A model generated the notes under the pieces. That model saw only the letters and a program-made list of their open reading frames with translations. It was not told where the DNA came from and did not search any database. A program made the translations under genes and the position numbers. This document shows positions 30,701 to 34,860 of a DNA stretch of 64,000 bases, piece after piece (within the stretch, counting starts at the first letter, position 1; every line of letters starts with the position of its first letter). Origin of the DNA: Thysanoteuthis rhombus (taxonomy: Eukaryota > Mollusca > Cephalopoda > Oegopsida > Thysanoteuthidae). The stretch spans positions 43,641,742 through 43,705,741 of the forward strand of contig OY735227.1 in NCBI GenBank assembly GCA_963457665.1, in the 5' to 3' direction.

Positions 30701-33700
30701 TCCTGTTGATTCATTAATATACTCAACATTTGAACCACAATTTCATGTTATTTTCTCCCTAAAAGAGAATTCCATAGTTGCCATTGATTGATAGCGTATG
30801 GAAGCTTATGTAAGTATATACCCCTATAGTAAGAAAAATATCACAGAGATTTTCTTTTAAATAAGCTGTTTCTGCAAACTTTGTTTCATTCTTTATTCGC
30901 CTTGGCCCTCAAAACATAAGAAAAACATTTCTTATCCAAGCCTCCCAAAAAGGTTTGATTCATAATCTATAATTGAAGAGTGTGGTCCAAGACGCAATAA
31001 GCATCATTTAAAAAATGTGTTTAATTAAGTGAAAAATAGAGCACTGGATTTGATTTTTTTTTCATATCACAACTGCATACATATAAAAAAAAAATTGTTA
31101 TGAAATTTTTAAAAATTCGAATCCAGGATTTAATTTCTTATTTCAAGGACACGTTTTTCTTAATGATGCTTATCGCGTTTTGAAACCACACTCTTCCCTT
31201 GTTATGACTAATTCGGCTTCCTAATGCTGCACCTCTCCATAGCATCAAGAAAGATAGCTTCGGGGCAATCCTTGATGCATGTGGCGTGCTAAAAAGTCAG
31301 ATGGAGGAAACCAGATAATTCAGATCATTTCACCATATCCGCCGAGTGTGCCCATTTTCTTCAATGTCCTGTGCCACATTCTGCCTTAGTGGAAGAATAC
31401 CATTTCAGTCCAAGTCATACTGACCAATGGTCTACTTTTGCACTGTTTAGAGTGTTAGACTTTTGCTGCTGTGTTTAATTGATTTCATTAACTTGACCAA
31501 ATTTGATTTCAGAAGGGGGAAAACTAGCATTAGGGAATGACCTTGAAAAAGTTGAGAACCACAGTGTGAAGCATTGTGCCATCGTATATGATTCCCCACG
31601 CTAAAATAAAAGAGACTCAAAGTGGGGAGGCGTGTAATTATCATTAGATCATCTGAGATTAGTTTACATCACGAAATGAAATAAGTTGGATAAATCATTG
31701 CAGTTCCAGGTTCGAGGATGTGTTAATCAATATTAACAATGAGAAAGCAGTCAGAGAGTGCATATCTCTTCCAAGGCCATCACCACAGGGGGGAGTAATC
31801 GTGCGTGGATCCGCCCCAAATTCAATCAGTTCTTTCGTAGCTTATAGTCCACTCTTCCACAAACTCTAATTGAAATTCATTCGGAACTTTTGGAGATATT
31901 GTGTGGACGGACGTGAAATTTTGGCGATATTGTGTAGTTTGGACATATGACAACAGCGTGGGAGGTTCCTGGATCCTCTCTAATATTTAATCACTTGAAA
32001 CCTATTGTCCAAGTCTCTACAGAATTCCATTGAGAACTTTTTGAGATATCGCATTGACAATCATATGCGTATAGGTAAGTGCATGAAAAAAACGGGAAGA
32101 TAATTGTCATTCAAAAAAAGACTTCCTGGGTCTTCCCCAACATTTAATCAACTGTTCCTTAACTCCTTACACGGAATTTCATCTAACTCCGTTCAGTACT
32201 TTCGGGGTATCTTGTGAACAGACGGATAGATATGACTAAATACATATACCTCTCCAACTTCGTTGAAGTGTGAATTATACAATTCAATAAACCACGACGT
32301 ACAACTTCAATTACCTGATTTCAAATAACGATAAAACCTAATGACAAATTACAACTAGCGTTTACGAACACATACAAAATATATTACTACCAGATGAAAT
32401 TTTATTCTTGACGCTTGTTTTGTAATTTTGTTTCTCAGGTGTCGTGTCTGATTTTTTTTTCTAACTGATGTTACAAGAATTATCCTGGAAAGGAAAATAT
32501 ATTCAATGATACAGCGTTTTATTGTATTTCTTCGGGCACTGAGCATTAACAATGGGATTTGAATAGTTTTTATTTCTTTACCATTTTGTCTATGCCATCA
32601 AAAAATCACAACCGTATTTAAATAATTTTGTGAATGCATTGTACTTTCAAAATATTAGAAATATCATGTTGCTCAGCGTTTTCTTGTGTACGTCCATATA
32701 GAGTGAACTGAAAATGATAAATACGGGAGATACGCCCAAATAAGCAAATGATAATTATGTCCCTTGACAAATATTACAAACAAAAATATAAACATACACA
32801 TGGCGTTTATTAGAAGTAAATTTTCGTATTAATTTTTTTTTTTTATGATTTGTGTTTTTCAGAAAAAATGCCAACCAGCAGGGATGCCCAATTTTGCCTG
32901 TTTCTTGACAGTTTTGACAGTTGTCGAGTGCGCTTCACCATTGAACGAGGGCCAACTGGCGATCTCAAAGTCACGGCACTAACTAAGAAAGGTGAACATT
33001 ATTCTTCATTTCTATCAAATGGTGTACTATAAGTGGTTATTATTAATTTTTGTCCAATTCCAAAACTAGAGCAGATTTTACTTTTCAACCGTAACAAGAA
33101 CAAGAACAATCCTCATCGAAAATAGGGGTGTAAACTGAATCACATTCTACCAGGAAGCTGTCACACAGATGTACAAGGGCTTATTTCATTCTGATGAATT
33201 CAATACAAAAATTATGATGGCAACAGCTTCAGCTGTCCCTGTCCAGGCTCCACATATCACAAGTCTACCTGTCTCGGCTATGGGGCGCAAAATGCGAAAT
33301 AGATTTTGAGGCGAGAAACACCCAAAGTGACGTCACTAGCTTCTTCTTGCGCTATTTTACCCATCCTTGGGAAGGAGATATAGGTTCATGTCTTTCACAA
33401 GGGCATTAGTGATGGGTGATCACAAACTGGCTCAACTGGTGTTTAAACTCCGCTCACCTTGTCCATTATCCATACCGTTGATCACTCGGTCATACTTCCT
33501 ACTATTCTCTGAAAACCCGGAAGTGAACTTATTATTGACTGTCATGGCGAGTTTCTATACTTTTTAAACATACTCAATAGTAATACATTAGTAATATCTT
33601 GCATAATTTTTTGGTCTGTTACCTTCATCTTGGTTGTTCTGTCTAACACAACGTTGCAGCTGTTTTACCCTACGGCCTTCTTCAGGTGGGTTTCGTGAAT

Positions 33701-34854: not shown

Positions 34855-34860
34855 AATAAA
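34855..34860 (+). terminator. Polyadenylation signal AATAAA of the integrin-like gene
   Basis: The canonical hexamer lies 423 bp after the TAG at 34430-34432, followed by a GT/T-rich stretch (ATGTGTTGTTTATCTTT). It fits the end of the 3'UTR. Confidence 0.65.

Follow-up and report, generated by a model that had tools for sequence, protein, structure and literature searches.

Integrin beta chains that end before the membrane have been described in the zebrafish, where truncated integrin beta1 paralogues (beta1tr) stop before the transmembrane (TM) segment and have been proposed as possibly secreted regulators; they end four residues past EGF-4, with the beta-tail lost and the A (betaI) domain kept (PMC1538996). 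Secreted proteins composed of integrin-type EGF repeats are also known, with ITGBL1/TIED (ten repeats by its alternative name) being reported as an inhibitor of integrin activity (PMC8921176). A further comparison is given by short beta-2 chains deposited in the PDB (5e6v, 2p26, 5e6w and 5e6x), in which the PSI, hybrid and I-EGF domains were matched in one stretch by the squid gene described here, in the manner of a chain free of betaI. These chains are laboratory fragments, which we take to be deliberate betaI deletions (the PDB search shows length and contiguous match only), whereas here the same arrangement appears to be encoded by a gene. The betaI domain is the part of the integrin beta chain which binds ligand (MIDAS) and through which the beta chain chiefly contacts the alpha propeller.

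The DNA analysed (hereafter the window) is a stretch of 64,000 nucleotides placed at C32:43641742-43705741 of the 2.73-Gb genome assembly of Thysanoteuthis rhombus. It probably represents the 3' half of one gene, with the predicted product being a secreted, headless integrin-beta rod. An exon model built from the assembly extends from C32:43595535 to 43676176 (~80 kb) and contains 32 readable exons, in the domain order of signal peptide candidate, PSI, hybrid without betaI, 13 EGF modules, beta-tail and stop. No stops occur in its 825 readable codons (412 from the first 17 exons, which lie outside the window, and 413 from the window part) and all junctions are in phase except C2 to A2, which is unreadable, the expected D2 exon not having been located. 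Pfam analysis of the window part returned EGF_integrin (5e-25), with EGF_2 and teneurin EGF families also above their cut-offs, and the beta-tail family was absent from this listing. Of the features of an integrin beta chain, the PSI, hybrid, I-EGF modules and beta-tail are present, and betaI/MIDAS and the TM/cytoplasmic tail were not recognised. The gene is descended from integrin beta and appears to have lost the head that binds ligand as well as its anchor in the membrane.

Like the zebrafish paralogues, the squid gene ends before the TM segment. The pattern is otherwise the reverse of theirs, with the beta-tail kept, betaI not recognisable and 13 EGF modules. Like ITGBL1 it has an integrin-type EGF array, and a candidate signal peptide exon in the squid gene makes its product a putative secreted protein; PSI, hybrid and beta-tail are also present in the squid gene. 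To our knowledge, ITGBL1 is without these three. When compared with the canonical beta genes found elsewhere in this genome (C14 carries four, C15 and C21 one apiece), the EGF and tail exons are homologous, the phases of the I-EGF3 exon are the same as in the C21 gene, and the intron phase of the TM exon is the same in the five paralogues read. However, those genes have betaI and TM exons, neither of which was recognised in the C32 gene. An integrin beta gene free of both is apparently undescribed in the literature covered, although truncated TM-less beta paralogues and secreted EGF-repeat proteins are already known. No betaI-less or TM-less integrin beta of cephalopods or molluscs was found among the titles and opening lines of abstracts in the literature covered, that coverage being incomplete.

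The predicted EGF rod and its exon cassettes

The predicted rod is encoded by a five-exon cassette, B (phase 0->0), X (0->2), C (2->0), D (0->1) and A (1->0), of which four copies precede a fifth B and the tail (Table 1). B and X together correspond to I-EGF1/4, C and D to I-EGF2, and A to I-EGF3. This gives 13 EGF modules in the model (four cassettes plus one module), one of them incompletely read, as against the four I-EGF of a canonical beta chain. Exon lengths are constant for B (87 nt, 5/5), C (73 nt, 4/4), D (82 nt, 3/3) and A (110 nt, 4/4), with X varying between 32 and 38 nt. The acceptor of C2 is weak at -0.2 bits, like that of A3.

For D2, of cassette 2, there was no convincing candidate in the readable 7.5 kb of the 12.5-kb interval from -8864 to 3632 (window numbering). 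The 5 kb from -4999 to 0 read N, and D2 was counted as unread with continuity of the frame assumed at this point; loss of the D exon by cassette 2 is not claimable because of these 5 kb.

Table 1. Exons and other features of the gene within the window (window numbering).
Feature	Position	Strand	Phase	Remarks
Exon A2 (I-EGF3 type)	3633..3742	+	1->0	110 nt; length and phases as A1, A3 and A4
Exon B3 (I-EGF1/4 type)	4542..4628	+	0->0	87 nt
Exon X3 (small linker, ...YC..)	5956..5993	+	0->2	placed by splice score, phase and residue pattern
Exon C3 (I-EGF2, first half)	10602..10674	+	2->0	73 nt
Exon D3 (I-EGF2, second half)	11536..11617	+	0->1	82 nt
Exon A3 (I-EGF3 type)	13299..13408	+	1->0	weak acceptor, -0.2 bits
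Exon B4 (I-EGF1/4 type)	16846..16932	+	0->0	
Exon X4 (small linker)	19953..19990	+	0->2	placed by splice score, phase and residue pattern
Exon C4 (I-EGF2, first half)	21000..21072	+	2->0	
Exon D4 (I-EGF2, second half)	24572..24653	+	0->1	
Exon A4 (I-EGF3)	25435..25544	+	1->0	
Exon B5 (final I-EGF4)	28260..28346	+	0->0	
Exon T1 (beta-tail, first half)	29772..29892	+	0->1	
Exon T2 (beta-tail, second half)	32863..32991	+	1->1	
Upstream terminal-exon copy (copy A)	34176..34192	+		ESPSI-stop, then 55 open in-frame codons with hydrophobic stretch
Terminal exon T3, coding part (copy B)	34416..34432	+		(E)CPSI-stop; at position of paralogue TM exon
Polyadenylation signal	34855..34860	+		AATAAA

Several of the EGF modules are without one or two of the eight canonical cysteines. 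All four I-EGF3 copies (3633, 13299, 25435 and C32:43626356) are missing the second Cys of the C-x-C pair, leaving seven, and this residue is retained in the paralogues on C21 and C15. Another canonical Cys is missing from all five B and all four C exons. The disulfide pattern of the rod may be different from that of integrins. It should also be noted that the intron between B5 and T1 contains long TA and CTAT microsatellite runs (28841-28910 and 29381-29610), and that fragments which look to us like LINE-type reverse transcriptase occur both within one of the gene's introns and downstream of the gene (22768-23471 on the plus strand, 47899-48507 and 57255-58088 on the minus strand).

Comparison of the cassette copies gave a pN of 0.35 against a pS of 0.82, with third codon positions being the least conserved. 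Although pS is near saturation, this pattern favours protein-level selection during most of the period that followed the cassette duplications. The probability of finding no stop in 707 codons (the model at that stage) was calculated as 0.002 for 5% neutral drift and 0.09 for 2%. The gene is thus either in use or recently dead.

The front part and the betaI position

A candidate for the signal peptide exon lies at C32:43595535-43595601 (MKKMEFGQFSIFVIVLVFVSSS). Within the 9 kb searched no other distinct site exceeded the threshold, and the score of the candidate was unmatched elsewhere in 21 readable 9-kb blocks on both strands (five blocks with N were excluded). Approximate human queries led to two PSI exons and to the first hybrid exon (E-values of 0.002, 0.043 and 2.5), and these PSI exons joined to the first hybrid exon gave a Pfam PSI_integrin match of 2e-11. 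When the genome was scanned with the PSI family, the first PSI exon (C32:43600838-43600912) came fifth of 14 with an E-value of 0.18, below the Pfam cut-off. The last hybrid exon was located by its CECDC motif and scored 10.1 bits with the hybrid profile.

Splice score, phase and the spacing of residues were the basis for choosing four further hybrid exons (HybA2 and HybB1-B3), which rest on their mutual fit. Three of the four, with scores of 25.1, 18.6 and 16.5, are the top three intervals of the 8.5-kb gap. HybB2 has a weak acceptor (3.0 bits), yet it was the best of 18 candidates with its phase. As a minus-strand control yielded 10 open candidates scoring at least 16.5 in 11 blocks of 8.5 kb, single calls among the small exons (signal, X1-X4, HybA2 and HybB1-B3) could be wrong. 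A direct junction between HybA and HybC was also considered and was rejected for its wrong phase, intermediate exons having been found.

The PSI-hybrid-EGF1 part was matched contiguously (8-223, E-value 5.7e-18) to PDB 5e6v_A, a beta-2 chain of 224 residues, and was likewise contiguous against 2p26_A (1.3e-17) and 5e6w_A (1.6e-17). PDB chains of ~470 or 690 residues matched this part in two pieces, with the ~470-residue headpiece chains that contain betaI scoring nearly as well (1.5e-17). The query had been built from exons chosen by pattern and the result is therefore support, not independent discovery. The short beta-2 chains suggest by analogy that a betaI-free PSI-hybrid chain would be able to fold.

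Both the end of HybA2 and the start of HybB1 are in phase 0, the hybrid exons thereby joining in phase across the missing betaI, and in a canonical gene at least six betaI exons lie between these two positions. Neither the 2.6 kb between HybA2 and HybB1 nor the remainder of the readable locus contained a detectable betaI exon, the best score (10.8 bits) belonging to an 8-residue match within the intron that follows C2. In a leave-one-out control, paralogue betaI exons scored 24.9-87.5 bits in their own loci (29 of 30 matches, the other having been dropped for its several stops). A genome search with PF00362 placed none of its 30 matches on C32; by our own grouping these represent six beta genes, four on C14, one on C15 and one on C21. 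The front part of the predicted protein would thus be arranged as a hybrid domain closed on itself without an inserted betaI. Two of the integrin beta genes on C14 are convergent (C14:65057609-65111587 on the plus strand and C14:65116640-65145364 on the minus strand), with their last recognised exons ~5 kb apart.

The 3' end and the transmembrane position

The original prediction, that the spliced frame runs through a beta-tail domain to Glu-Cys-Pro and ends two codons later, was borne out by a PDB match and by the strong acceptor at 34416. A query of the I-EGF4 exon, the tail exons and ECPSI matched the I-EGF4 and beta-tail of integrin beta-1 (PDB 8oxz_Q) over query residues 1-116 (phmmer E-value 5.3e-13), and the same regions of beta-3 (PDB 6mk0_B; 5.6e-10) were also matched. 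The beta-tail domain is complete, including its last Cys, and the match to the beta-1/beta-3 tail extends through ECP. The terminal exon starts at 34416, where AG is directly followed by TGTCCCTCAATCTAG, and in phase 1 it reads (G)AG TGT CCC TCA ATC TAG, encoding E-C-P-S-I-stop with the stop codon at 34430-34432 and a coding piece of 17 nt only. The AATAAA noted earlier is also present downstream of the stop. Approximately 0.85 kb past this signal are two adjacent open frames on the minus strand (35706-36899), which we take for reverse-transcriptase-like and GIY-YIG endonuclease sequences as in Penelope-like elements.

With a splice profile made from the gene's own exons, the acceptor at 34416 scored 13.6-14.0 bits and that at 34176 scored 9.6 bits, the 99th percentile of 3000 random AGs being 9.9 bits; the donor of T2 is weak (2.8 bits). 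Both acceptors lie within an 83-nt tandem duplication with 76% identity and TAG at the same codon, copy A (34176) having Ser where copy B (34416) has the last tail Cys (ESPSI and ECPSI). The stop apparently predates the terminal-exon duplication. As both copies carry TAG and yet have diverged to 76%, the truncated form looks old, and the upstream exons are intact nonetheless.

A cytoplasmic-domain search gave TM-exon matches for five of the six paralogue beta genes and the sixth, on C15, was found by tblastn (E-value 2e-6); all six betaI-bearing genes, as we grouped the matches, possess a TM exon. The C15 gene had been considered as a second anchorless beta gene, which was rejected as its TM exon had been overlooked by Pfam and was detected by tblastn. 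The cytoplasmic side of this C15 beta (C15:32342856-32343008) is very divergent (WRCYSSCLDNVEYKHYQLE) and was missed by Pfam Integrin_b_cyt, and signalling by this integrin beta may differ from that of its relatives among the beta chains. Those five TM exons that were read have a common intron phase (1) and start 1-3 residues before a Cys (VCPTS, DCKKE, ACALP, ESDCTKE and ECPES). Given this shared phase and start, the ECPSI-stop exon is the positional equivalent of the TM exon.

The absence of a visible hydrophobic exon downstream had also been noted earlier, and no TM/cytoplasmic exon (HDRRE, NPxY) was recognised in the rest of the window plus 10 kb, a total of 39.6 kb past the last exon. The searches consisted of tblastn across 84 kb, for which five TM exons served as queries, and of a TM profile run across 124 kb (10 kb of it N). 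The best profile score at the locus was 7.8 bits (6.5 when the C15 exon was added to the profile), whereas in a leave-one-out control each of the six known TM exons was found at its own locus with 20.1-82.0 bits, the divergent C15 exon giving the 20.1 bits. Downstream, the profile matched best at 42228-42368, in an open hydrophobic frame (7.8 bits, E-value 0.77; tblastn 0.15) from which the HDRRE-like part is absent. The best tblastn matches (E-values of 0.012 and up) were to an isoleucine run at 1411-1497 of the window and were discounted as low complexity. There was no Pfam match to the cytoplasmic domain near the locus, the sole match on C32 (E-value 4) being 7 Mb off. In the C21 paralogue the TM exon lies 8.5 kb past the first tail exon. 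The idea that this is an ordinary beta chain whose TM exon lies farther downstream was rejected, or at least weakened, by the lack of a convincing TM exon in these 39.6 kb.

The sequence after the duplicated stop was also analysed. In copy A the TAG is followed in frame by 55 open codons containing a 19-residue stretch with a mean hydropathy of 2.04, a combination seen in 0.37% of 20,000 Markov shuffles in what was a post hoc test; the hydrophobic stretch is absent after the stop of copy B. In addition, 34231-34299 (23 residues, in a frame other than that of copy A) resembles the TM/cytoplasmic junction of a paralogue (tblastn E-value 0.23). In a frameshift-tolerant profile test limited in register, the observed score was reached by 27/1200 shuffled and 14/1103 genomic nulls for copy A, and by 5/1200 and 18/1103 for copy B, that is by 0.4-2.3% of nulls, the two copies not being independent. 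With unlimited register this was the case for 8/60 nulls for copy A and 0/60 for copy B. It is possible that the frame downstream of copy A is the fossil of a TM exon, the evidence being suggestive, weak and partly post hoc.

Predicted product and alternative readings

The suggestion of a secreted beta-stalk protein is supported by the signal exon candidate upstream and by the lack of any recognised TM exon. Outside the signal, the highest 19-residue hydropathy mean in the whole readable model is 1.04. As there is no other strongly hydrophobic segment, and hence no GPI-like tail, release from the cell is indicated. The protein would enter the secretory route and be released as a long disulfide-rich rod, and would neither pair with an alpha chain through the betaI-propeller contact nor bind ligand through MIDAS. 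With no recognisable betaI there is nothing obvious to compete for RGD-type ligands, making the role of soluble decoy proposed earlier unlikely, while that of matrix component stands as a possibility. An extracellular role as a matrix spacer or as a modulator of real integrins could be envisaged by analogy with what is reported for ITGBL1, and we infer, as a best guess, a matrix protein or ITGBL1-like integrin modulator more than a ligand decoy.

It is unlikely that the gene is instead recently dead, with its betaI exons deleted, its TM lost by nonsense mutation and its product no longer translated. Two typical loss events within one gene, the TM-like hints past the stop in both copies of the terminal exon and the failure to find D2 would all fit such a history, but the 825 codons are stop-free, the junctions are in phase with one exception and the B, C, D and A exons are invariant in length. 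The betaI gap also falls between phase-compatible hybrid exons, and the truncation looks old, with TAG in both copies of a duplication now at 76% and the upstream exons intact. The possibility that the ECPSI-stop is not a real exon, and that AT-rich intron sequence mimics a gene end here by chance, is barely credible even with a coding piece of merely 17 nt, as the acceptor is in the top 1% of random AGs, its phase is correct and E-C-P appears where expected, with the same stop codon in the duplicate copy and AATAAA downstream.

Two further readings would restore a membrane-bound form. Integrin beta chains are known to occur with alternative C-termini, and T2 might be spliced to a TM exon that is distant or too divergent, with the ECPSI-stop as one alternative end. 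The weak T2 donor, the open hydrophobic frame at 42228-42368 and the presence among the PDB matches of a chain named 'Isoform Beta-3C' are in favour of this, but we give it only a small chance: the 39.6 kb downstream hold no convincing TM/cytoplasmic exon where that of C21 is just 8.5 kb past the first tail exon, the leave-one-out control detects even the C15 TM exon, and the one Pfam cytoplasmic match on C32 is 7 Mb away. It is very improbable that the 34176 exon, which has a good acceptor, yields a TM isoform through UAG readthrough or A-to-I editing. The 55 open codons and hydrophobic stretch after the copy A TAG would permit this; however, the hydropathy test was post hoc, copy A has Ser for the last tail Cys, the resemblance to the TM/cytoplasmic junction is in another frame, which suggests decay, and copy B is without the hydrophobic stretch. 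If true, the duplicated terminal exon would be a switch, producing a secreted form (the default) and an anchored betaI-free integrin from one locus.

The secreted, headless rod is considered the probable reading of the locus. Such a gene would be a natural version of the stalk fragments studied by structural biologists, and with it the abilities of an integrin leg lacking the head could be tested directly. It would illustrate the conversion of an adhesion receptor into an extracellular rod through exon loss and cassette duplication.
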